In this document: positions 8,637-19,435 of the stretch, in pieces
Numbering within the stretch: the stretch's first letter is position 1
Layout of the letters: each line of letters begins with the position of its first letter
NCBI GenBank assembly: GCA_023647555.1
Contig: JALRLY010000212.1
Span: forward strand, 1-20,142
Direction: 5' to 3'
Length of the DNA: 20,142 nt
Source: Pancytospora philotis
Lineage: Eukaryota > Microsporidia
Notes under the pieces: generated by a model
What the model was told of the DNA's origin: nothing
Seen by the model: only the letters and a program-made list of their open reading frames with translations
The model's database searches: none
Translations under genes and position numbers: made by a program

Positions 8637-9028
8637 TTAGTCCTTGTTTTCCTAGTACAGCCACCGGCCTATACTTCTTATACAGACAGCCTGGCATTCA
8701 TTTCTCGCAGTTTTTGAGTCTAGCATGCGCACAACTTTAATATTCGCGCTCTCGGCTGTATTCTGGGTAATGTATGAGTCGTTATAGTGCTGCGGCGTGC
8801 ATGATATGGGCAGTCCTAGGAATAGTTCTCGTTTTAAGCACCCAGTTATTCTGTCTCACCTGGCTATCAATGTTGTGAAGCTGTTCGCCTTTCTATAGGA
8901 AAATTGCCGTGCAAGTGTTACATTTCATTTTCGATCTTGTATACTATCCTACAGCTACTGATCGACTGGGTATTATCTACGTCATGGCTGTGCTAATCTC
9001 TCAAGGTACGCGCGGCAGTTGATAAAAG

Positions 9029-9048
9029 AAAATTTTTCAGCGGCCCCG
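9029..9048 (+). promoter_or_regulatory. AAATTT-like block plus CCCC start signal
   Basis: AAAATTTTTCAGCGGCCCCG immediately before the ATG at 9049. It shows that this ATG, not the TTG opening of the frame at 9019, is the start. Confidence 0.6.
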
Positions 9049-10428
9049 ATGACAGGTTTCATGGCCCTGCTGCTGGGCTGCGTGCAGTGCGCTAGCACCT
9101 CGGCGGAACTGGAATCTTATGATGACTACATCCTTAAAATTGAGAAATCGTTCGTCTCCAACAGTACCGTACCTGACCTAGCCCGCGGACAAGTTTCACC
9201 CGCTATCGCTGCTCCGAGCGCTGACGCAAAACACTTCCTCGGCGGCGTGGAGGTTGCCAACCAGCAGTGGGAGGAGGCAGTTCGCAAGTACGACAGCGCG
9301 GCATATAGACTGAACAGCTGGACGAATAGGCTAATAGCGCTTGCAACACAGCTCAGACCATTCTCAGTCAAGCGCAAGTACGGCTACATTGAGCTAGGAA
9401 AGGTCTGCTTCCGGGACACAGGCCGATTTATATCGCAGCTCGGGCCCGAAGATTACTGGATCAATTCCGAGGAGTCGCAGAGAGCGTTCGATATCGAATA
9501 TGACAGGTTGAGTAGGAAATTATGGCATGAGTTTATCAAAAAGACGAATTATCACTTCAGGCTCTGTTACAGCGCTTGCTACAGGTTTCTGCGCATGTAC
9601 GACGCAGCGCAGTACGGGGATGAATACATTGATAGGGTGACAGACGCTGTGGATGAGCTGTATGAGTTTACGCGCACCGCTCAATCCGTGGAGCACTCTG
9701 AGAGGTATGTTGCGCGGTTCAGCGAGGCCGCCCTCGGCCACTTCAGCAAGCTGCTTCAAACTCTCGATGAAGTGGCTCACGGAACCTGGCTTCAGAATCC
9801 GCAGCACACGATTCTCGATGTCAAAGACCCGAGCCCGAACTACAAGGGCCTCGAATACTTTTATCTGTTGTTCAAGGCGACCATCGAGGCAACTATACTA
9901 GTGCAGAGAGAACTCAATGCTTTCGGTCGTTATAATCAATTTCTCGAAGAAGAATACAAGAATGCGCTAGGGCAAGCTAGGGAAGCTAACAGGCGTGACC
10001 GCAGAATTGCAGTAGATCCGTTAAGAATTGCCAGCAGAATAATGACTCGTGAACTACCGCAAATAAAGCGCGAGGCGGTGCATGCGTACAATACTTTCCT
10101 CAACATCACACACCACCTGCCGCGCGCGCCTAAGCCTATTGATGCTTCGCCCAAATGCGCTCCGCAGCAGCCTGTGTACACCAACTCGCATTTCGGCGGC
10201 TACCCCACTCCCAATGACCTGTATGTTGCTGCATATGCCGCTGGGTATAATGCTGGATATGCCAGAGGATGCGATGCTGGGAGGAGCATGGTTTATCCAG
10301 CAATATACGGCTCCGGCTACACTGATTCCAGTACCGCTACCGCGGCTCATTCTAATACGCATCGTCTTTCCGATTTGCAGCAAAGGCGATACAATGCTGT
10401 TAGTTATCCATCTCGTCCCTATCAATAA
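9049..10428 (+). CDS. Secreted helical protein, member 1 of tandem paralog array
   Basis: A 459-residue protein of no family I recognise, with a signal peptide (MTGFMALLLGCVQCASTSA, about 1-19). The family core follows: Y81 with AAYRLNSW, then RPFSVKRKYGYI (103-114), C120, and C177 in YSACYRFL, 57 residues later. A C-terminal helical block opens with DPSPNYKGLEYFY (260-272) and contains ILVQRELNA (283-291). From about 360 the sequence turns low complexity, Tyr/Gly/Ala-rich (AAYAAGYNAGYARG). Possible N-glycosylation sites are at N38 and N352. It aligns almost without gaps to the next gene over residues 74-113, so the two are close duplicates. It is probably exported to spore or host; the role is unknown. 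Codons are more mixed than in the housekeeping genes. AATAAA overlaps its stop codon (10424-10429). Confidence 0.88.
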   Translation: MTGFMALLLGCVQCASTSAELESYDDYILKIEKSFVSNSTVPDLARGQVSPAIAAPSADAKHFLGGVEVANQQWEEAVRKYDSAAYRLNSWTNRLIALATQLRPFSVKRKYGYIELGKVCFRDTGRFISQLGPEDYWINSEESQRAFDIEYDRLSRKLWHEFIKKTNYHFRLCYSACYRFLRMYDAAQYGDEYIDRVTDAVDELYEFTRTAQSVEHSERYVARFSEAALGHFSKLLQTLDEVAHGTWLQNPQHTILDVKDPSPNYKGLEYFYLLFKATIEATILVQRELNAFGRYNQFLEEEYKNALGQAREANRRDRRIAVDPLRIASRIMTRELPQIKREAVHAYNTFLNITHHLPRAPKPIDASPKCAPQQPVYTNSHFGGYPTPNDLYVAAYAAGYNAGYARGCDAGRSMVYPAIYGSGYTDSSTATAAHSNTHRLSDLQQRRYNAVSYPSRPYQ

Positions 10429-10429
10429 A
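10424..10429 (+). terminator. AATAAA overlapping the stop codon
   Basis: The stop TAA (10426-10428) lies inside an AATAAA hexamer, so the 3' end of the mRNA may be only a short distance beyond the reading frame. Confidence 0.35.
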
Positions 10430-10863
10430 TGCTATTCGTTAACGCTGGCATATCCGTCCAGCGGCTTCAAGCATTTGGGCCTTGTTCCGCCCCTGCTCGG
10501 CCGTATGGGCCTATCCTTTGAAGAACAGCATGCTTGCTGCCGAATATGTTGGATCTGTAGTGCTTTAAAGTACATTCTCCGGTGCCGCAGCGTATGGTAA
10601 AATGCACATTCGGTGCTTGTTTTTCCAGCCTAGTTTGAATGCCTGTGTGTTGCACCTGTTTTACAGATTTCAACGGTGAGCAACCAGTTCTTGTTTGTCT
10701 CACATTTGCGGGTTACTTTTCTGAGTTCCATGGTTAAGATAATAATTACCAGGGTTTTCTATTGCTATCAAACAGCTGAGCACACTATGCGCCGTTTAAC
10801 AGTTGTTGTTACCTCTGTATGACCGCTCCTGGCTTGCAAATATGAAAAATTTTGATGGCCCCG
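10429..10863. other. 435-base gap between members 1 and 2 of the array
   Basis: Mixed-composition sequence ending in the start signal of member 2. No supported open frame, RNA or repeat; I see no resemblance to the gap before member 1 outside the start signal. Confidence 0.45.
10845..10863 (+). promoter_or_regulatory. AAATTT-like block plus CCCC start signal
   Basis: AAAAATTTTGATGGCCCCG directly before ATG at 10864. It contains an earlier in-frame ATG at 10855, but the CCCC lies after that one; by comparison with member 1 the ATG at 10864 is preferred. Confidence 0.6.
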
Positions 10864-12336
10864 ATGAATATGTTTCTGACCTTGCTGCTCGGCGGCCTGC
10901 GGGGCGCCGGCACCTCTGCAGGGCAGGACTATATCTATAGCTACATCCTCGAAGTGGAGAGGTCATTCGACTCCAATATTCGAGTTGACGTGACGCCCCG
11001 TTTTCATCCTCAGGCTCGCTCTTTGCGCGCGGCTTCCAGCACAAACCAGCCCCTGGGCTGTGCACGGGTCGACAGCGCACAGTGGGAAAAGGTGCTGAGC
11101 GACTACGAGGTCGCGGCGCATGAGCTCAATAGCTGGGCATACCGCCTTTATGACTATGTCTCAGCCCTCAGGAGGTTCTCACTCAAGCGCAAATATGGCT
11201 TCATCTTTGCTGACTGCTCGATCAACGATACGATAGGCTTCTTATCCAAGTTAGGCGCCAGGGATATCCTGAGGCAGCCTATAGGAAAGTGGGGCGGGTT
11301 CGACTCTGAGTTCACCAATCTCAATGAAACTCTGTTGGCTGATTTCATCGCCAAAGTCAATGAACACTTTACGTGCTGTTTCAAAGCATGCTGTAATTTT
11401 TTAAGTCTATACGACTCGCGAATGTATGGGCCGCATTACGCCAGAAGAGCCACCGATGTGACGGATAAGCTGTCTGAGCTCATGTGCGGCGCCAAGACTA
11501 TGGGGCTGTCCGTGCGGCACATCGCACAGTATAGCCTGTCCTCACTTGAGTACTTCGATATCGTGCTGCGCGAGCTCAAAGGGGTGGCTTCCAGGTGTTT
11601 GCTCATGGCGCCCGACAATACGGTATACGACCCCGCGGACCCCAGTCCGCGCTATCATGGGTTCGATTATCTGTACCAGACGTACAAGAGGTGCGTCGAG
11701 GCGCTTATACTCGTGCAGAAGGAGCTCAATGCGTTGAATCGCCACTACGATTTCCTCGATAAGGAATTCGATAGAATGCTGAAGCGAGAGTGCGAGAACA
11801 ACGGTCCCGGCGCTCTCGTCGACTATTCAAAGCTAGCCTACTACGTTATAAAAAATAAGCTGCCCGCGATAATAACGCAGACCAAGCACACATACACGAG
11901 GTTTCGCAATATCGCCAACTACCTGCCGAGCGAGGAGCCGGTCGTAAGTCCGCTCATGGCTGTGTCGATTGGGGTGTGGGAAGCTCCTAAGCCTGCCGAG
12001 GCTGCACCTCATCGGGAAGGGTCAGGCTACGTATCGCATCGGCGCCCCAAGCACCAGCAGTATGTGCACCCTGGTCCGCACAACAACGCTCACCCTGAAA
12101 ATACAAATGGGCAGTACCGGGGCACAACGTATTACAATGCGGACCCGGGCAGCATGCCGCAGCAGCCCATCATGCAGTCTGGCTTCTACCATAATGGGTT
12201 TTTTGTCACTGCGGATGGGCAGCGTTGGGTCCCATTTAATAACAACGTGTATCCGGGCACTATGCCGCCGCAGCCCGCGCATTATGGCCCAGATCCCAAC
12301 GGCGATCCTGCGAATGCGCAGTGCCAGGGGCTGTAG
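10864..12336 (+). CDS. Secreted helical protein, member 2 of tandem paralog array, with proline-rich tail
   Basis: A 490-residue secreted protein, the closest relative of member 1. Signal peptide MNMFLTLLLGGLRGAGTSA; core Y81 with AAHELNSW, then RRFSLKRKYGFI (103-114), C118 and C176 in FKACCNFL; C-terminal block DPSPRYHGFDYLY (259-271) with ILVQKELNA (282-290). Additional cysteines at 66, 171, 172, 177, 207, 245, 277 and 310 suggest further disulfides. Beyond about 375 the protein becomes a His/Pro/Asn/Gly/Tyr-rich tail with an imperfect repeat, PGSMPQQP and PGTMPPQP (428-435 and 464-471). The last residues include DPANA, as in member 4. Possible N-glycosylation sites are at N121 and N154. 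No known domain; a structural spore component or a host-facing secreted protein are both possible. The start at 10864 is chosen by the signal; 10855 would add three residues. Confidence 0.88.
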   Translation: MNMFLTLLLGGLRGAGTSAGQDYIYSYILEVERSFDSNIRVDVTPRFHPQARSLRAASSTNQPLGCARVDSAQWEKVLSDYEVAAHELNSWAYRLYDYVSALRRFSLKRKYGFIFADCSINDTIGFLSKLGARDILRQPIGKWGGFDSEFTNLNETLLADFIAKVNEHFTCCFKACCNFLSLYDSRMYGPHYARRATDVTDKLSELMCGAKTMGLSVRHIAQYSLSSLEYFDIVLRELKGVASRCLLMAPDNTVYDPADPSPRYHGFDYLYQTYKRCVEALILVQKELNALNRHYDFLDKEFDRMLKRECENNGPGALVDYSKLAYYVIKNKLPAIITQTKHTYTRFRNIANYLPSEEPVVSPLMAVSIGVWEAPKPAEAAPHREGSGYVSHRRPKHQQYVHPGPHNNAHPENTNGQYRGTTYYNADPGSMPQQPIMQSGFYHNGFFVTADGQRWVPFNNNVYPGTMPPQPAHYGPDPNGDPANAQCQGL

Positions 12337-12338
12337 AC

Positions 12339-12354
12339 CGCTGATTTTTCAGCG
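12339..12354 (+). other. Perfect hairpin after the member 2 stop codon
   Basis: CGCTGATTTTTCAGCG forms a 6-base perfect stem with a TTTT loop, starting two bases after the TAG. It is followed within 8 bases by TTCATTAAA. Function unknown; it could be chance. Confidence 0.4.
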
Positions 12355-12361
12355 TCAATCA

Positions 12362-12370
12362 TTCATTAAA
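12362..12370 (+). terminator. TTCATTAAA 3'-end signal
   Basis: ATTAAA-type polyadenylation signal 26 bases after the member 2 stop, identical over nine bases to the signals behind the 8170 and 15629 genes. Confidence 0.45.
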
Positions 12371-12464
12371 CTACGGATATTTTAATTATACTATATTTTC
12401 TTGCTGTAATCAATATTGCAATCTATCATGCGCGTATCGCTCGTAGCGACCGCAATGGATCACC

Positions 12465-12482
12465 AAAAAATATTCAGGCCCC
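12465..12482 (+). promoter_or_regulatory. AAATTT-like block plus CCCC, displaced from the start
   Basis: AAAAAATATTCAGGCCCC ends at 12482 and abuts an out-of-frame ATG at 12483; the coding ATG of member 3 is at 12497. A second CCCC lies at 12488-12491. Confidence 0.5.
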
Positions 12483-12496
12483 ATGATCCCCTTTTA

Positions 12497-13717
12497 ATGT
12501 TGGGCACATTGCTTATGTGCAGCTCGGTATTCAGCGCTGATACTGTCCCTGATAGTGGAGATGTGAGGCGCATCGAAAGAGTGTGCCAGGCATTTGACTC
12601 TGAGGCTAACGCATGCACATCGGTGTTCTTCAATCGGCCGGCGCGACGGACCTGCTGGGAGAGCGGCCCGGTGCTGCCCGTGTCTTTCATAAACATCGAC
12701 CATCGCCAGAAAGAACGAATCGTGAAGGCCTACAAGGATGCGGCGGACTTCTTGTCGAGCATTGTCGCCATTATGCAGCGGCAGATCGAAGAGCTTAATA
12801 AGCTGTCCTTTGAGCACAAGTATGCCAGCTTTGACACGGAAAACTACTTTTGCGATACCGTCGCCGGCGAGCCCAAACTCGCACCCCATATGCTTAAGTA
12901 TAAAGCGCCGCCCAAGCTGCGGCTGTTCGATGGCGAGATCGCCGCCTTCGCCAAAGACTTCCGGACGCGATTCAGCAGAGATATCAAAGAGTTTCACCGC
13001 CTCTACATCCGCATGAGCTGCGAGCTGGTTAGCCTGTACAAACTGAATAAAGCTGACAGCGATGCGCTATCAAAGGCCTTTATGAAAACGCGGAGCATTT
13101 TGAACAGCCGGGGCAGGAACGCTCATGAGCGCTTTGAAGCTGGAAAAATGCATCCTGCGAAATTCTGCAATGATGTTCTCGCGCAGTTCAGTTCAATTTA
13201 CCACAGGCTGATCAGGGCGATCATGGGCCGAAGGGCCCTGGACCCTAGCGGCGAGCCGCTCGACACCGAATGCCTCGCTTCAGAGTACCATGGGCTTGAT
13301 CAGATGTTGCGGCTCTTCGAGACGTACATGGGCGCCGGTCTGCTCGCGCTCGCCGAGCTGGATCGGTGCATTGAGCACTGGAGCGAGCTCAGCAAGCGTT
13401 ACGGGAAATACAGTGATAGGAGAGATGCAAGAACATCAGTAAATGGTACCAATAAAACGAGAGAACCGGGATGTTGTAAGACTTTTATCAAAGCTCGGTA
13501 TTGCACATTAGTAGCGCACACTTCAAGGGCGCAGGCGCAGCTTGCAAAGATCGAAAAGAGGCTATCTGATGCCATGTCGGCATTCAGTAGAGCTGAGCCC
13601 GCCCCCATAGCGTATTGGCAGCACAGCGGCCCCCATGCAGCCCCAGTCCCGGCCCTCGGTCTACGGCAGCACCAACATCCACAACATCCACATATGCCGG
13701 GAAGACAGTGGTGTTAG
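12497..13717 (+). CDS. Secreted helical protein, member 3 of tandem paralog array
   Basis: A 406-residue secreted protein when started at the ATG at 12497, giving the signal peptide MLGTLLMCSSVFSA. In-frame ATGs at 12428 and 12455 would put 14-23 polar residues in front of it and lie before the promoter-like block. Family core: Y79 with KDAADFLSS, LNKLSFEHKYASF (100-112), C119, C175 (56 apart), and the C-terminal block EYHGLDQM (263-270) with ALAELDRC. It is more diverged from members 1 and 2 but shares YKDAAD with member 4. The segment about 300-330 is basic and polar with NGTNKT, two possible glycosylation sites. The tail from about 370 is His/Pro-rich (RQHQHPQHPH) and ends in cysteine. The translation start is unusual because a four-codon frame precedes it. 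Unknown function, presumably extracellular. Confidence 0.85.
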   Translation: MLGTLLMCSSVFSADTVPDSGDVRRIERVCQAFDSEANACTSVFFNRPARRTCWESGPVLPVSFINIDHRQKERIVKAYKDAADFLSSIVAIMQRQIEELNKLSFEHKYASFDTENYFCDTVAGEPKLAPHMLKYKAPPKLRLFDGEIAAFAKDFRTRFSRDIKEFHRLYIRMSCELVSLYKLNKADSDALSKAFMKTRSILNSRGRNAHERFEAGKMHPAKFCNDVLAQFSSIYHRLIRAIMGRRALDPSGEPLDTECLASEYHGLDQMLRLFETYMGAGLLALAELDRCIEHWSELSKRYGKYSDRRDARTSVNGTNKTREPGCCKTFIKARYCTLVAHTSRAQAQLAKIEKRLSDAMSAFSRAEPAPIAYWQHSGPHAAPVPALGLRQHQHPQHPHMPGRQWC

Positions 13718-14213
13718 TCTAGAGTTTGTCTAGAAGCAGGGTAAGATTTAAAACGTAATGAAATATTTGGTCTGATGTGTATATTAGAAACTAATGGTAT
13801 ATTTTATAGCATTTGAATATCCTGGCTGGCGGTGTAGTGTGAGGAGCTTGCCGATGCTGTCAATGATGATGTATTTATTATTAGATGCGATTCAGCTATT
13901 AGTCGAGTATTTATTCGATAGCATTTTGCATTAATACACTGTACACTTCTTGACATGCGCTAGCAAAGCCTTCATTAATATTTTGACAGACGCCCCACGC
14001 TTTATATTCGTAATGCAATGCATTGCGTCATGTAATTTGCATTAGCCTATGCTGCAATGCTGTGCAGCAATTCAACTCTCGATCTCGTTAGCAACAACTT
14101 GATCTGTGCGCTAGAACGAGCACCCAACTACTCTCGTGTGTTTTTGCACCAAGGTCCGGCCGCCCGTCCGTAAAATTCGTTGAATTATCGACAAAAATTT
14201 TTCAGCCCCGTTA
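13718..14213. other. 496-base gap between members 3 and 4
   Basis: AT-rich sequence with a 12-base palindrome GCAATGCATTGC near 14016 and the start signal of member 4 at its end. No supported gene or RNA, and I recognise no decayed family copy in it. Confidence 0.45.
14193..14213 (+). promoter_or_regulatory. AAATTT-like block plus CCCC start signal
   Basis: AAAAATTTTTCAGCCCCGTTA directly before ATG at 14214; the first part is nearly identical to the signal of member 1. Confidence 0.6.
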
Positions 14214-15401
14214 ATGGTGCCTGTCGCTTTGCTTGCGTACTGCATGTACTGTGTTGCTGCCGCGGGCAGCCCGTCCCAGACCTGCGACACCTCCACCGAT
14301 ACTCCAGAGCGGTGCAGCCCGATCACAGATGATGATGCGGCTCCTCACCAACGGCAACTGAATTTGCCCATTCGAGTTGGTCCGTTCCACTACGGATCAG
14401 GTGTCCCAGCATTCAAGATCACCCAGAAGGTACAGTTTGTCTCTGGGCTATACAAGGATGCAGCAGACACCCTGGCTTTCTGCTGTGGTATGGTCAAGCG
14501 CTCCATCGCGGAATTGAAGGAATTCTCTCTGCACCACAAGTTCGGCTACTTCTTACACCTGTACAGGTGCTACCGCGGGCCGAATGCCGAGCTGCCCGAT
14601 CTTGCCCTCTGCCCCATGGATTATACCAGGATGAGTGCGTGGGGCAAGTTCGATGACAGCTTTAGTGCGTTGTGTGATAGCTTCTTCGGCTGCTTCAAGG
14701 GAAACATATCCCTGCTTTACAAGCAGTGCGCTGCTGCCAGCGTTGCGATTCTGCGCTTTGGAGGAGCCAAGTGTTATAGATACCAGCACTATAACAGAAA
14801 GCTCCAGGCGCACTGGCAGGACTTGGAGCAGACGCTGAATACAGACAGCATGCAGAGCTACCCAGTGCACATGAAAAACTTCATCGATAGAACAGGCGAG
14901 GAGTTTCGTAAGCTGTTGGGTGCGGTGAACTTGTGCTCCGCAGCGCTTATGCAATCGTGCCCGTCGGAGGGTTTCTCTCTTGGCGCCGAGTACTACTATG
15001 CGGTGAGCAGGGATTTTAAAAATGTGGGCAAGCTCTTGGAAGCGTATATGATGGCTGTTTATATAGTCCAGCGGGAGATCTGCCGCCTCACCGAACACTA
15101 CAAGGGCCTGGATGCGGCGTACCATGCAGCGATGAAAGACGCCATTGACAAGAAACGCCCCCAGTCTCTGAAAGGCTTTGCAGAGCTATCATTTGCTCGC
15201 ACCGCCATTGATGTCAAGTTTGAAGATATTAACAGGCTCGCCGCGAGCGCTTATAAGCAGCTTACGGTTATAGAGGATAGACTGGTAGAGGCTGAGTCGA
15301 GGTTCAATCCCAGGCCAGAGTGGTATATGGCACCTGAGCCTAGACAGGATACTAAGTCAAAGTCTTCACAGGATCCTGCGAATGCACATGCTTCTTTCTG
15401 A
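14214..15401 (+). CDS. Secreted helical protein, member 4 of tandem paralog array
   Basis: A 395-residue secreted protein with signal peptide MVPVALLAYCMYCVAAAGS and a Thr/Asp-rich linker to about residue 50. Family core: Y80 with KDAADTLAFC, AELKEFSLHHKFGYF (99-113), C119 and C172 (53 apart). The later helical block includes AEYYYAVSRDFKNVGKLLEAYMM-type helices (258-280) and IVQREICRL, clearly parallel to ILVQRELNA in members 1 and 2. One possible N-glycosylation site is at N164. There is no long low-complexity tail; the C-terminus is short, polar and ends DPANAHASF. The DPANA is encoded by 14 bases identical to those at the end of member 2. Function unknown. It is the last gene of the contiguous array; the next gene encodes a membrane protein on the same strand. 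Confidence 0.87.
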   Translation: MVPVALLAYCMYCVAAAGSPSQTCDTSTDTPERCSPITDDDAAPHQRQLNLPIRVGPFHYGSGVPAFKITQKVQFVSGLYKDAADTLAFCCGMVKRSIAELKEFSLHHKFGYFLHLYRCYRGPNAELPDLALCPMDYTRMSAWGKFDDSFSALCDSFFGCFKGNISLLYKQCAAASVAILRFGGAKCYRYQHYNRKLQAHWQDLEQTLNTDSMQSYPVHMKNFIDRTGEEFRKLLGAVNLCSAALMQSCPSEGFSLGAEYYYAVSRDFKNVGKLLEAYMMAVYIVQREICRLTEHYKGLDAAYHAAMKDAIDKKRPQSLKGFAELSFARTAIDVKFEDINRLAASAYKQLTVIEDRLVEAESRFNPRPEWYMAPEPRQDTKSKSSQDPANAHASF

Positions 15402-15530
15402 GCCATCTAATATGTGCTTTACTGTGCTGTTGATGCTTCCTAACAACGGTTTTGCGTTTCTATTCAGTAAATCACGTTACACCAATTTTAAGACAGCGGG
15501 TTTAGCTTTTTGAAAAGTGATAAACGCTGG

Positions 15531-15572
15531 ACAGCAGCATCAAAATACTGTACAGCAGCATCAAAGCACTGA
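15531..15572 (+). repeat. Two tandem 21-base direct repeats
   Basis: Units 15531-15551 and 15552-15572 both begin ACAGCAGCATCAAA and differ at three positions. They lie about 57 bases before the 15629 start codon in noncoding DNA and may be a local duplication or part of a promoter. Confidence 0.75.
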
Positions 15573-15628
15573 TTGTTTATTCATCCCAATTAATCTGCAG
15601 CCGCATTAGCCTAACACAAACAAAGCCC

Positions 15629-16171
15629 ATGATCTGGTCAACGAGGGCCCGCTGGTGCGTGTCCGCGCTGGTGCTCGGCGCCTGCCGCGCGGTCCAAATC
15701 AACACAATGGTATTTAATAACTCGAGCGACAGGTCGGCGACCATCCAATTCAGCGAGCCCGTGGTCGTGGAGCAGCTGAACCTCTGCAAAAAGGTGAGCG
15801 GTGACAACGTTGTCCCCGTAGCCGCTCTCATGGACCGGATCACGGATCCGCCGAACTACCCGGAAAAGCTGCGCAACCTCTCGCGCAGCGATGACAAGGA
15901 CCCGACGTACAGAGGAGAGGCGACGGTCAGCAGTCTGACGGTCGATCTAAAGGGCATAGACTTTCAGGAGAATGTTCTCTACTGCTTCAAGGCGCTGCTT
16001 TACGGGACTGGCGAGACGGTATACTCAGAGTCATTCGTGTACGATGACGGGAGGCTGCAGTACGCCAGGGACTGCGATAACGGGCACTGGTACAGCAACA
16101 TATGGGTGTGGTGCTGCGTGGTGCTCATTGTGGTGCTTGTGCTGCTCGTGCTGAGGCTGCTGTTCTACTAG
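15629..16171 (+). CDS. Small type I membrane protein with signal peptide and C-terminal membrane helix
   Basis: A 180-residue protein of no family I recognise. The N-terminus MIWSTRARWCVSALVLGACRA is a likely signal peptide (about 1-21). The ectodomain of about 135 residues is Ser/Thr/Asp-rich with alternating hydrophobic patterns suggesting beta strands, possible N-glycosylation sites at N30, N31 and N83, and cysteines at 53, 119 and 149. A strongly hydrophobic segment at 159-180 is one membrane helix, leaving essentially no cytoplasmic tail. CCC touches the ATG; no AAATTT block is close. It follows the secreted array in the same direction, so it may act in the same surface or secretory setting, but that is only positional. 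Its codons are more G/C-ending than those of the array genes. TTCATTAAA follows at 16200. Confidence 0.82.
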   Translation: MIWSTRARWCVSALVLGACRAVQINTMVFNNSSDRSATIQFSEPVVVEQLNLCKKVSGDNVVPVAALMDRITDPPNYPEKLRNLSRSDDKDPTYRGEATVSSLTVDLKGIDFQENVLYCFKALLYGTGETVYSESFVYDDGRLQYARDCDNGHWYSNIWVWCCVVLIVVLVLLVLRLLFY

Positions 16172-16199
16172 AAATGCTGTGGAGCAAAAGCCTGCGGTA

Positions 16200-16208
16200 T
16201 TCATTAAA
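16200..16208 (+). terminator. TTCATTAAA 3'-end signal
   Basis: ATTAAA-type polyadenylation signal 29 bases after the stop of the membrane-protein gene; the third copy of the same nonamer behind a gene in this window. Confidence 0.45.
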
Positions 16209-16456
16209 GCGTTAAAGATACAAGAAAATTGAATGGCTATGCCAGAGTGAGCAGCAACACGACTATTTAGCAAAAGCTGAAATAGCTTTTATAGCCCCAT
16301 GCGTTCTAAGGCACTCGCGCATAAATAATACAATTTGAATATTGTGCTAGTAAGAAACAGCCACAGCTTTGGCAGGTGTTAGTGCCAGCACCAATAAGAA
16401 GATCCTTCATACACCGCATCCTGCATATTTTAGCGCACGGCCGATGGAATAAATGC

Positions 16457-16478
16457 AAAAATTTTACACCGACGGGCG
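16457..16478 (+). promoter_or_regulatory. AAATTT-like block plus GGG start signal
   Basis: AAAAATTTT (16457-16465) and GGG (16474-16476), two bases before the ATG at 16479; the G-triplet variant of the microsporidian start signal. Confidence 0.5.
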
Positions 16479-17099
16479 ATGGCTGTTGATGCTCCAACCA
16501 CGAAGCCTGCGTACGCAATCACGACGATCCTGGGCTCCGTCCCGTACATCATCGATACCGACAGGCCGTTCCTGCAGAGGCCCCGCCTAGTCCTGCTGGA
16601 CGATTTTCTCTACAAGGACTCGTACTACCACAAGGGCGGGCAGCTGCCTCTGAAGGACTTTGTCGCTGCTGGCACGGATGTGCTGCTCGGGACCAGGGGC
16701 GAGCGTCCGGCGGTGCTGAGCTCCAAGCGCGGGAACTTCAAGGTCACTCCGGAGATGTACAGGGAAACCGTCGAGCGCATGGGCGTCGCAGCCTTCTCGG
16801 ATTACCATACCGGCAGGCTTGAGTACGGCGGCGCAGAGCTTTTGGAGCCGTCTGATGCGGCCGACCTGGCTGCGAAGATTGCACAGGGGCATCTGCTGTT
16901 TGGCACGAGGTTTATCAACCAGCTGACAGAGACAGGGCAGCTGCTCCTCATCGAGGATGGCGCTCTAATCGTTAAGCATGTGAACGACACTGAGCACGAG
17001 TATGTCAAGTACATGCTGTCTATCAAGGAGATGAACGCGTTTTCGTTCATTTCCGAGCAAAACTACCGGACGATTGATGAGTATTTCAGGTCCTTGTGA
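16479..17099 (+). CDS. Reduced queuine tRNA-ribosyltransferase accessory subunit-like protein
   Basis: A 206-residue protein that I read as a shortened member of the tRNA-guanine transglycosylase family, closest to the noncatalytic QTRT2-type subunit. The middle, SSKRGNFKVTPEMYRETVER then GVAAFSDYHTG (about 81-112), matches the barrel segment where family members read (V/L)TPE..., an acidic-rich strand and a conserved Asp. The end, EYVKYMLSIKEMNAFSFISEQNYRTIDEYF (about 173-204), resembles the C-terminal helices of the family with the AYIHHLL...KE...HN pattern. Family members are about 400 residues; here much of the barrel and the zinc site are missing, and there is no cysteine at all. It therefore cannot bind zinc or catalyse base exchange in the usual way. 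The assignment is by eye and moderately secure. The start is supported by the AAATTT/GGG signal. Confidence 0.6.
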   Translation: MAVDAPTTKPAYAITTILGSVPYIIDTDRPFLQRPRLVLLDDFLYKDSYYHKGGQLPLKDFVAAGTDVLLGTRGERPAVLSSKRGNFKVTPEMYRETVERMGVAAFSDYHTGRLEYGGAELLEPSDAADLAAKIAQGHLLFGTRFINQLTETGQLLLIEDGALIVKHVNDTEHEYVKYMLSIKEMNAFSFISEQNYRTIDEYFRSL

Positions 17100-17221
17100 C
17101 TATGCTGCGCGCTGTTATGCAGTACGGTATGTTTGAAGCACAGTATCGGCTTTAGCAGCTTGTCCTACCTAGCTACGTACCATCTGTTATTCTAAGTAAT
17201 AAATCCTGGTTGTTCATCTTT

Positions 17222-17257
17222 ATTCTTTGGATTCTTTGGATTTTTTGGATCTTTTGC
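17222..17257 (+). repeat. Four tandem 9-base repeats before the proteasome gene
   Basis: Two perfect ATTCTTTGG units (17222-17239) are followed by ATTTTTTGG and ATCTTTTGC. They lie 57 bases before the proteasome ATG. The frame is open through them, which artificially lengthens the apparent coding region, but they lie upstream of the start signal. Confidence 0.7.
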
Positions 17258-17288
17258 ATCCCGTCGCAGAGCGCCTAGGCTCCACTGT

Positions 17289-17313
17289 TAATTTTGCAGG
17301 GCACAGAGCCCCT
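17289..17313 (+). promoter_or_regulatory. AATTTT block plus CCCC start signal of the proteasome gene
   Basis: TAATTTTG at 17289-17296 and CCCC at 17309-17312, one base before ATG at 17314. It decides between this ATG and the upstream frame opening at 17227. Confidence 0.5.
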
Positions 17314-18042
17314 ATGGCCGGCGACTTCGACTATGACAGCTTCCTGATGTTCAACCCCGAGGGCAAGATCCGCCAGCTCGAGTACCTCAGACAGGCCACT
17401 GGGCTCGGGAACACGTGCCTCGCGCTGAGCAACCCCAAGCACGGCGTCCTGGTCGCCCACATACCGCGGCGTTCCAAGCTCGCGGAGCCGCAGAACAAAG
17501 TTTTCGAGATCAAGGAGAACGCGCTCTTCGCCTTCGCGGGCATCACGAACGACGGCCTCAGCATCGTGGAGTACCTCAAGCACCGGGCCATCGAGGAGGA
17601 CGTGGTGAAGAACCGCTCGATACACTACATCGATGTGTTCGATGATCTCTGCGTGGACGCCGCGCGGCGCTCGATCGCGGACTCGTCGCGGCTGTACGGC
17701 GCCGCGGGCATTCTCATGATCGACACGGACGGCGTGAAGGTCGTCGAGTTCGATCCGGTCGGCACTGCGCGCGAGATGCGCGGCGTGGCCATCGGCTTCC
17801 GCGCGCAGTCCTGCATGACCATCCTCGAGGACTGCGTCGACGAGATCGCCGATGCCTCGCTGGACGAGCTCATCAGGCTGGGGATCCGTGCGCTGGGCAA
17901 CGCGCATCCCGACAAGGACGAGAACACGCTCAAGGTCGAGGACGTGTATATATACGTGATGGAGGCGGGTGCGGGCTACAAGCAGGCCATGGCCTCCGAC
18001 TATATGGTCTCGGGCGAGGAGACCGATGTATCACAAGAATAA
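17314..18042 (+). CDS. 20S proteasome alpha subunit, alpha6-like (PSMA1/PRE5)
   Basis: A 242-residue alpha-type subunit of the 20S proteasome, the ring that gates entry to the proteolytic chamber. The alpha-type N-terminal signature is present as FDYDSFLMFNPEGKIRQLEYLRQA (about 5-28), modified from the usual YDR...F.P.GR..QVEYA. The body matches the Ntn fold with GVLVAH, ALFAFAGITNDGLSIVEYL and ILMIDTDG; the stretch VVEFDPVGTAREMRGVAIGFRAQS, with EF.P.G and an acidic/aromatic position before AIG, is most like alpha6. Alpha subunits have no catalytic N-terminal threonine, consistent here. The C-terminus is acidic. The start at 17314 gives the standard short N-terminus and sits on the CCCC signal; starting at 17227 would add 29 low-quality residues encoded partly by tandem repeats. 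Codons are strongly G/C-ending. Confidence 0.92.
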   Translation: MAGDFDYDSFLMFNPEGKIRQLEYLRQATGLGNTCLALSNPKHGVLVAHIPRRSKLAEPQNKVFEIKENALFAFAGITNDGLSIVEYLKHRAIEEDVVKNRSIHYIDVFDDLCVDAARRSIADSSRLYGAAGILMIDTDGVKVVEFDPVGTAREMRGVAIGFRAQSCMTILEDCVDEIADASLDELIRLGIRALGNAHPDKDENTLKVEDVYIYVMEAGAGYKQAMASDYMVSGEETDVSQE

Positions 18043-18346
18043 GTTAAATATTCAGCTGGCGTATTGGTAGAAGTGTTGCTCTTTTAGTCCTGGACAAGCT
18101 ATTTGCCTGTGTGAACTCTATTGAAACGTTTTAGAGGCACTGTGGGCAGATACCGCTTGACATAGGCATTGGCTAGGCCAGCGGGTTCATCCACATGCAA
18201 AATGTGACCATTTTCATACTACCTGGCCTATCATTTCCTATTGTTTAGAGATCTATCATTACGCGCACTGCGCCATTGTCTGAAGCATCTACAGTGAAAG
18301 GAATAAACTATTTGTAGTCCAAAATATTAGAAAAAGCAAAAGACTA
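18043..18346. other. 304-base gap between convergent genes
   Basis: AT-rich 3' region shared by the proteasome gene and the convergent secreted-protein gene. An AATAAA lies at about 18300. Nothing else is supported. Confidence 0.5.
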
Positions 18347-19435
18347 TCAATAGGTAATGCGTTTATATTTGTTACCAGAGCGGATGGGAGAGTCGTATTG
18401 GGGGAGGCTTTGGGCCAGCTCCTGTTTACATGCTCTAATCTTCTTCAATAGGCTCTCTAGGTCGAGAAGCAAATTCGTTGCCACCTCTCGCAGATTAGGA
18501 ATGCGCTCATCGATCACTTCATCGGCGTACCGTTTCTTGTCCGCTACGGTCAGCGCGGCCGACCGATACAGGCGATGCTCCCTGCATTTCGCCTTGTACA
18601 AATTGGTGATGTTTGCTCGGGCGCTGCGCAGCTTGACTATCTCGTCGTTCACTGCTAAGGCGACCCTCATGTAATCGAAGAAAATGCTCTTTATCGCGCC
18701 AGGCATGCAGCCCTCTATGCCCTGTATATCAAGGATGGATCCGCTCGTGTTCTTAGGGGCGATTCGGCGGGCCCTGATCTCTTTCTCTATAGCATCGCCG
18801 TTCGTTGTAACGTACAGCCTGACAGCGTGTGTGAACCTGGACCACTTTAGCGAGCTGTTCTGCTTCGAATCCATATACTGGTGCACAAGGATCGCATCAC
18901 CATTGATCTCCGCCACCTTTTTGATTAGCCCTACATCGACCATGCAGTCGTAATACAGCGCGAATTCTCTGAGCGCGTCTCTGCACGTCTCGAAGTACAG
19001 CAGCCGCATGGTCCTGTTCGGGTATTCGTCGTGCCAGTCCTCCCTCAGCCACTTGTCCTGCTCGTATATTCTAGCATCGGCAGCGGAGAGGCGGGCCGCC
19101 GCCGTGTGGGGCTGGTGCTCCTTGGCCAGGTTTACATTCAGCGCAGCGTAGGCACAGCCCCTGTAGTACCTCTCCCACGCGATGAACTCCCTCGACAGGT
19201 CTTTAACACCTCTGCACAGCCCGAGCAGCAGGCTCTCGCACGCAGAGCAGGCCTTAAGAAGCGTGTTTGTTGAGATGCTGGTGCTCCTCACGCCGGAGCT
19301 GTTGCTCTCTGCCCTGGGACGCGCATAAACTAATTGCATTGCGCCGTGTGGCGGAGCTGTGTTGGCAGCATGGGACAGCAGCAAGACAGTCTGGACTACC
19401 GCTGCGATCACCATTTCTACACCCTTCTCGTGCAT
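18347..19435 (-). CDS. Secreted helical protein, diverged fifth member of the paralog family
   Basis: A 362-residue secreted protein. M1 at 19435 or M8 at 19414 could start it; both give a hydrophobic signal ending SHAA (about 24), and M8 puts the hydrophobic run at the very N-terminus. Neither has a clean AAATTT/CCC signal (ATAAATAA before the first ATG, GGG nine bases before the second). It belongs to the family by pattern rather than obvious identity: C94 in YYRGCAY and C151 in FETCRDAL are 57 residues apart, and FETCRDALREFALYYD parallels FKACCNFLSLYD of member 2. A later block GIEGCMPG...FFDYMRVALAVNDEIVKL mirrors YHGLDQM...FETYMGAGLLALAELDR of member 3. The first half lacks the KYG motif. 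Several possible N-glycosylation sites (N45, N140, N193, N229, N275). No low-complexity tail. Function unknown. Confidence 0.82.
   Translation of the reverse strand: MHEKGVEMVIAAVVQTVLLLSHAANTAPPHGAMQLVYARPRAESNSSGVRSTSISTNTLLKACSACESLLLGLCRGVKDLSREFIAWERYYRGCAYAALNVNLAKEHQPHTAAARLSAADARIYEQDKWLREDWHDEYPNRTMRLLYFETCRDALREFALYYDCMVDVGLIKKVAEINGDAILVHQYMDSKQNSSLKWSRFTHAVRLYVTTNGDAIEKEIRARRIAPKNTSGSILDIQGIEGCMPGAIKSIFFDYMRVALAVNDEIVKLRSARANITNLYKAKCREHRLYRSAALTVADKKRYADEVIDERIPNLREVATNLLLDLESLLKKIRACKQELAQSLPQYDSPIRSGNKYKRITY

Follow-up and report, generated by a model that had tools for sequence, protein, structure and literature searches.

The window analysed here is the complete contig C74 of the Pancytospora philotis assembly (20,142 bases; the assembly holds 3.68 Mb in 83 contigs). 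It carries five open reading frames (ORFs) for leader-bearing proteins, P1 to P5 (Table 1), which an initial annotation had grouped as one undescribed family of secreted helical proteins with four tandem copies and one dispersed copy. All five frames were found where they had been reported. P1 to P4 almost certainly represent an array of four members of a small secreted-protein family, here called G1, and P5 is assigned with the same near certainty to a separate family, G2.

For pairwise comparison of the five proteins, the first 20 residues were removed and each pair was scored against 300 shuffles. P1 to P4 proved homologous: all six pairwise scores lay above all of their shuffles (z 12.0-103.4), and P1 was closest to P2 (phmmer 232 bits, E 2e-71). 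Two motifs cited in the initial annotation were indeed in register in the four proteins, Y-x-x-A-A at residues 81, 81, 79 and 80 and [FL]S-x3-K[YF] at residues 105, 105, 103 and 104, respectively. A late block of the form Y[KH]G...VQ[RK]E, which had also been cited, was confirmed for P1 and P2; P3 contained YHG and lacked VQ[RK]E, and P4 contained VQRE with a YKG (residue 296) that was out of register. Searches of the parasite's own genome with single proteins yielded two more genes of this family on contig C54, and a profile of P1 to P4 matched this pair with an hhalign probability (prob) of 97 (E 9.3e-11), as opposed to prob 0.2 for the reversed control (all hhalign figures are from local-mode alignments). 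The two motifs were not conserved in the C54 relatives. On the strength of these matches, G1 is taken to be a family of six genes found in the genome, P1 to P4 and the two on C54; the gene counts for G1 and G2, drawn from single-protein searches, are lower bounds. Low-complexity tails follow the helical core in P1 and P2 and are shorter in P3; P4 has only a short one and the two C54 relatives have none. Between the latter lies a retroelement with a single open gag-pol frame of 1249 amino acids (aa) and matches to protease, reverse transcriptase, RNase H and integrase, which we take to be of the Ty3 type.

P5 had been counted as the fifth member of the P1-P4 family. This assignment was rejected on sequence, because the scores were near null in pairwise as well as profile tests. 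Pairwise z values were between -0.1 and 1.8 (1.8 against P1, about 0 against P2 to P4), and the G1 profile aligned to P5 with a score of 24.7-24.8 (E 0.02, prob about 2%). A reversed control from other families, G2 against reversed G3, reached the same level (24.7, E 0.02). When the six-gene G1 profile was cut to its core, P5 scored 20.4; 100 shuffles of P5 reached at most 21.7 and 41 other ORFs at most 20.5. Thus, G1 and P5 have no detectable relation, which is not proof of none. In the search of its own genome, P5 gave a weak match (E 0.95) to a gene on C36, and that gene led to five others on C36 and C60. The profile of these six genes recognized P5 with prob 91 (E 1e-6, score 52.8), as compared with scores of at most 22.1 for 42 other ORFs and prob 0.1 for reversed P5. 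Tyr, Asn and Arg of a Y-x-N-x3-R block are kept in all seven genes, and a late cysteine in six of the seven. As judged from these similarities, P5 is an outlying member of the second family, G2, which numbers seven genes and has its sole copy in the window in P5. Profile comparison detected no relation between G1 and G2 (prob 0.1-0.4). A basic run (KRK, RKRK or RKRR) stands shortly behind the leader in six of the seven G2 genes, P5 being the exception; it may mark a site of processing or act as a nuclear signal. The G2 pair on C60 lies 1.2 kb from a subtilase gene, with another frame between.

The initial annotation had further proposed a cysteine pair common to all five proteins. The pair as cited was ruled out by its lack of register: the cysteines named for P1 to P4 were scattered over alignment columns 122, 123 and 125 and 176, 180 and 181. 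In an alignment of the six G1 members, the best cysteine column covered at most three. An alternative pair with a spacing of 53 was in register in P1 (C120/C173) and P4 (C119/C172), one column off in P2 and absent in P3. When the cysteines of each protein were redistributed at random, with the first 20 residues omitted, every one of the five had a pair spaced by 53-58 residues in 30 of 400 trials; for some spacing window six residues wide, the same was true of 359 of 400.

Table 1. Coordinates of the genes and other features discussed (contig C74 is the window).
Feature	Family	Contig	Position	Strand	Remarks
P1	G1	C74	9049..10428	+	459 aa; leader hydrophobic; helical core; from about residue 365 a tail rich in Gly, Tyr and Ala
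P2	G1	C74	10864..12336	+	490 aa, counted from the ATG behind GGCCCCG; His/Pro/Asn/Tyr-rich tail
P3	G1	C74	12497..13717	+	406 aa; short His/Pro tail; longer in-frame ATG at 12428 possible
P4	G1	C74	14214..15401	+	395 aa; AlphaFold2 model consists of long helices
P5	G2 (outlying member), not detectably G1	C74	18347..19435	-	362 aa
Neighbour between P4 and P5		C74	15629..16171	+	180 aa; hydrophobic leader, C-terminal transmembrane-like stretch, almost no tail; no Pfam match
Proteasome alpha-6		C74	17314..18042	+	housekeeping gene between P4 and P5; best PDB relative 8adn_E
Intergenic gap		C74	1518-3737		2.2 kb, GC 0.55
Open frame in this gap		C74	1960-2448		no Pfam match
First C54 relative	G1	C54	39112-40194	+
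Retroelement		C54	40743-44492	-
Second C54 relative	G1	C54	44699-45796	+
C36 gene	G2	C36	24152-25294	+	search of own genome
C36 gene	G2	C36	25639-26724	+	search of own genome
C36 gene	G2	C36	30630-31766	-	search of own genome
C36 gene	G2	C36	31988-33052	-	search of own genome
C60 gene	G2	C60	51684-52694	+	search of own genome
C60 gene	G2	C60	52990-54015	+	search of own genome
Subtilase gene		C60	48797-50473
Four genes in a row	G3	C54	48997-54156	-
Two genes	G4	C36	27341-29613	+
Pair of leader-bearing proteins		C36	10153-13899	+
Pair of leader-bearing proteins		C36	16411-19059	-
Five places in a row	C41/C76/C66	C41	165885-172480	+	matches to the C66 frame

Reading of the G1 and G2 neighbourhoods brought to light two further families, G3 and G4, whose proteins bear leaders and measure 299-373 aa. 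One member of each was scanned and gave no Pfam match above the cut-off, and hhalign detected no relation of G3 and G4 to G1, G2 or each other. On C36 there are, in addition, four leader-bearing proteins (407-474 aa) that form two pairs, with other frames lying in between. Phmmer relates the genes at 10153 and 12493 to each other (E 3e-18 to 5e-18); a repeated PPPYGTQDQ-type stretch occurs in the former. Another family became known from matches to a 291-aa leader-bearing frame on C66, which was part of the control sample described below. Its seven further places, counted as matches, are five on C41 and two on C76, one of those at E 0.013. The genome therefore contains at least five multi-copy families of such leader-bearing proteins, the counts being lower bounds.

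The N-terminal leader claimed for the five proteins was recovered in each of them by plain hydropathy. By the same measure, all 19 genes of G1 to G4 (a downstream Met being taken for two C36 genes) had a hydrophobic eight-residue stretch, with a mean of 1.96-3.19, starting within the first 22 residues, the weakest being that of the second G1 gene on C54. The statement that no known domain is present also held: P1 to P5 had no match in Pfam, NCBIfam or PDB, with zero Pfam families even at E 1, and five further proteins representing G1 to G4 had no Pfam match above the curated cut-off. The term undescribed is justified against these three databases for all five proteins, and P2, the sole one searched against a set of 5.8 billion proteins, returned only the window's own protein. 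Thus, for P1 to P4, the picture of a tandem array of diverging, leader-bearing paralogs of no known domain in a microsporidian was borne out. An AlphaFold2 model of P4, built with the four-sequence alignment, consisted of helices only (residues 2-18, 66-102, 106-120, 137-143, 146-182, 188-208, 213-248, 254-312 and 320-364), with a mean predicted local distance difference test score (pLDDT) of 54 and a predicted template modelling score of 0.51. P1 to P4 are accordingly predicted, at low confidence, to be all-helical. P5, modelled from its single sequence with the first eight residues removed, showed a layout similar to that of P4 at a pLDDT of 43, too weak for comparison. Fold searches returned no hit that exceeded the background stated for helical bundles.

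Comparison of 22 proteins by phmmer gave an adjacent family gene as the best match for 17 of the 19 family genes, as local duplication predicts; the exceptions were P5 and the fourth G3 gene, on C54. For seven neighbouring pairs, the NG86 ratios of nonsynonymous to synonymous substitution rates (dN/dS) were 0.33, 0.31, 0.34, 0.32, 0.45, 0.37 and 0.24, the value of 0.24 being saturated; with dS of 0.8-2.8, the last of these values are unreliable. These ratios indicate that, for the pairs tested, the copies are working genes under purifying selection.

The family genes also differed from ordinary genes in GC content at third codon positions (GC3). Mean GC3 was 0.60 (0.50-0.75) in the 19 genes of G1 to G4 as compared with 0.84 (0.71-0.94) in 15 Pfam-bearing genes, one of which (LRR, GC3 0.74) was just below its Pfam cut-off (Mann-Whitney p 1.2e-6). 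At second codon positions, the two groups did not differ (p 0.18). Nine frames were left out of the comparison: the retroelement (0.46), window frames of 129 aa (0.82) and 206 aa (0.76), the four other leader-bearing C36 frames (0.75, 0.74, 0.60 and 0.70), the 180-aa neighbour with leader and transmembrane stretch (0.81) and, on C54, a leader-bearing protein of 504 aa (0.86). As the last two demonstrate, a leader by itself does not entail low GC3. Location in a GC-poor region was rejected as a full explanation: the three genes lying between P4 and P5 combine high GC3 (0.81, 0.76 and 0.89) with spacers (GC 0.42-0.45) like those of the array (0.38-0.46). Pooled spacers had a GC of 0.44 beside family genes and 0.51 elsewhere in the window, the latter weighted by the 2.2-kb gap. 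Low GC3 is thus largely a gene-by-gene property, with a possible regional contribution. The composition of the family genes is nearer to that of the spacers than is the composition of the Pfam-bearing genes, which may reflect weaker codon selection or a younger age.

As a control, four 6-kb stretches (24 kb) at arbitrary fixed positions on C10, C31, C45 and C66 were examined, and 14 frames of at least 150 aa were picked mechanically as the longest non-overlapping ones. None of the 14 matched G1 to G4. Only one had a GC3 below 0.6 (0.44), and this frame, which has a hydrophobic leader, was the C66 member of the multi-copy family described above. Two other frames with strong leaders had GC3 values of 0.94 and 0.84, and two frames had 0.66. 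In the small sample of genes read overall, low GC3 together with a leader set the tandem secreted families apart from ordinary genes with almost no overlap. Should this prove true of the whole genome, candidate host-facing proteins could be catalogued without recourse to homology.

Families of a comparable kind have been described for Nematocida: signal peptides or transmembrane domains, membership in large gene families and clade specificity are all enriched among its host-exposed proteins (PMC5423893). Genes of such a Nematocida family frequently lie next to each other, which suggests that they arose by local duplication, and the four nucleus-specific proteins all belong to NemLGF1 (PMC5423893). 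Further families have been named, and of four other largest ones that were modelled, three were without apparent structural similarity to solved proteins (PMC10393165). G1 and G2 resemble NemLGF1 and NemLGF5 in that these are lineage-specific, often adjacent families of signal-peptide proteins, and the C-terminal domain of NemLGF1 is helical, as is predicted for G1 (PMC5423893, PMC10393165). They differ, in a comparison made by description, in size (6 and 7 found members versus 18 to 169 in four N. parisii families) and in location, NemLGF1 and NemLGF5 being enriched at chromosome ends whereas the G1 and G2 clusters lie among housekeeping genes. InterB/DUF1609 is likewise a microsporidian multigene family (PMC10393165), but P1 to P5 match neither DUF1609 nor any other Pfam family. 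The ricin-B lectin clusters of Nosematida, which occur with ptp6, are also clustered, lineage-expanded and proposed to act at the host (PMC10759460). Ricin-B lectins are, however, beta-trefoil proteins, whereas P1 to P4 are predicted to be all-helical and have no lectin match. Spore wall protein 12 is a helical microsporidian protein of the BAR type; P1 to P5 had no BAR match in Pfam, and the fold searches, which stayed at the helical-bundle background, speak neither for nor against a BAR fold. No description of G1, G2 or the companion families was found in the excerpts of the microsporidian literature consulted, which were compared by description and not by sequence. The sequence families look new, and their kind is already known.

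The best explanation, which we consider probable though well short of certain, is that these families are small and secreted, have multiplied by local duplication, and belong to the host-exposed type already described in Microsporidia. A gene would duplicate next to itself and the copies would then diverge, widening a repertoire of multi-copy secreted proteins. The leader, as judged by hydropathy, would direct the protein into the parasite's endoplasmic reticulum and out of the cell, and the mature protein may be a bundle of long helices. By analogy with the host-exposed Nematocida families, it would meet host proteins or membranes during intracellular growth, and duplicates may specialise for different partners or stages. 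A host-facing role of the G1 and G2 proteins is, on this analogy, more likely than not. Several observations weigh against this explanation. The dN/dS values are well below 1 and give no sign of gene-wide positive selection, the signal peptides are called from hydropathy only, and the pLDDT of both models is low. The low-complexity tails of P1 to P3 would be suitable for a wall or polar-tube protein, too. Moreover, G1 and G2 both fall short of the minimum of 10 members per genome that defines a microsporidian large gene family (PMC5423893).

It is doubtful, but conceivable, that the proteins are instead structural components of the spore wall or polar tube, in which case the helical core would take part in wall assembly and be anchored or cross-linked by the Pro/His/Tyr/Gly-rich tails of P1 to P3. 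The leaders and the tails behind the helical core are consistent with such a function, and known spore-wall proteins have leaders and little sequence similarity. The short tail of P4, the tail-less C54 relatives and the lack of any Pfam match in P1 to P5 argue against it, and several unrelated families of the same habit suit an effector repertoire better. That the proteins are drifted members of a described microsporidian multigene family (InterB/DUF1609, ricin-B lectin, LRR, RING or serpin) is very unlikely: Microsporidia do have expansions of families of this sort (PMC5423893, PMC10393165, PMC10759460), but P1 to P5 and the five further G1-G4 proteins gave the negative Pfam results reported above.

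The five-member grouping could still be right at the level of the fold if G1, G2 with P5, and perhaps other families descended from one ancestral helical fold and diverged past sequence recognition. The models of P4 and P5 have a like layout of leader, linker, helices and two long C-terminal helices, and the best local match between G1 and P5 (E 0.02, prob 2%) joins corresponding places, profile columns 265-338 and residues 231-303 of trimmed P5. We nevertheless regard such a hidden superfamily as unlikely, since the G1-P5 scores (24.8 and 20.4) are near those of the shuffles, other ORFs and the reversed control, G1 and G2 do not recognize each other, the P5 model is too poor for comparison, and a helical layout is common by itself. 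A broader version, which is distinctly unlikely, would derive many mutually unrecognisable secreted helical families from one ancestral scaffold that multiplied into short tandem runs between housekeeping genes, each gene marked by a low GC3. If this were true, the whole effector repertoire could be listed from leader and codon composition without homology. Returning to the explanation by small, locally duplicated host-exposed families, the present set adds several apparently new secreted families to parasites whose host-facing proteins in many cases lack a known domain.

The remaining observations concern the surroundings of the five genes. The 2.2-kb gap listed in Table 1, the widest intergenic one of the window, yielded neither a convincing gene nor any Rfam match. 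The GC content of the window per kilobase is 0.48-0.64, which is rich for Microsporidia, because genome GC was 23-47% across the eight Microsporidia of a codon-usage paper (PMC4461291). Among PDB chains, the proteasome alpha-6 protein was closest to 8adn_E (221 bits; next chain 84). For uL3, the top four chains were 7qep, 6zu5, 6rm3 and 7qca (480-510 bits; three of these within 10 bits of one another), the remaining listed chains scoring at most 442. We take the entries closest to both proteins to be microsporidian chains, and on that basis the window is microsporidian DNA. Many family and housekeeping genes, for example those behind window positions 8990-9048 and 14150-14213, have an AAAATTTTT-like run shortly 5' of the start, with CCC located at the ATG or close to it. 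This is presumably a microsporidian start signal; it was not seen upstream of P5.

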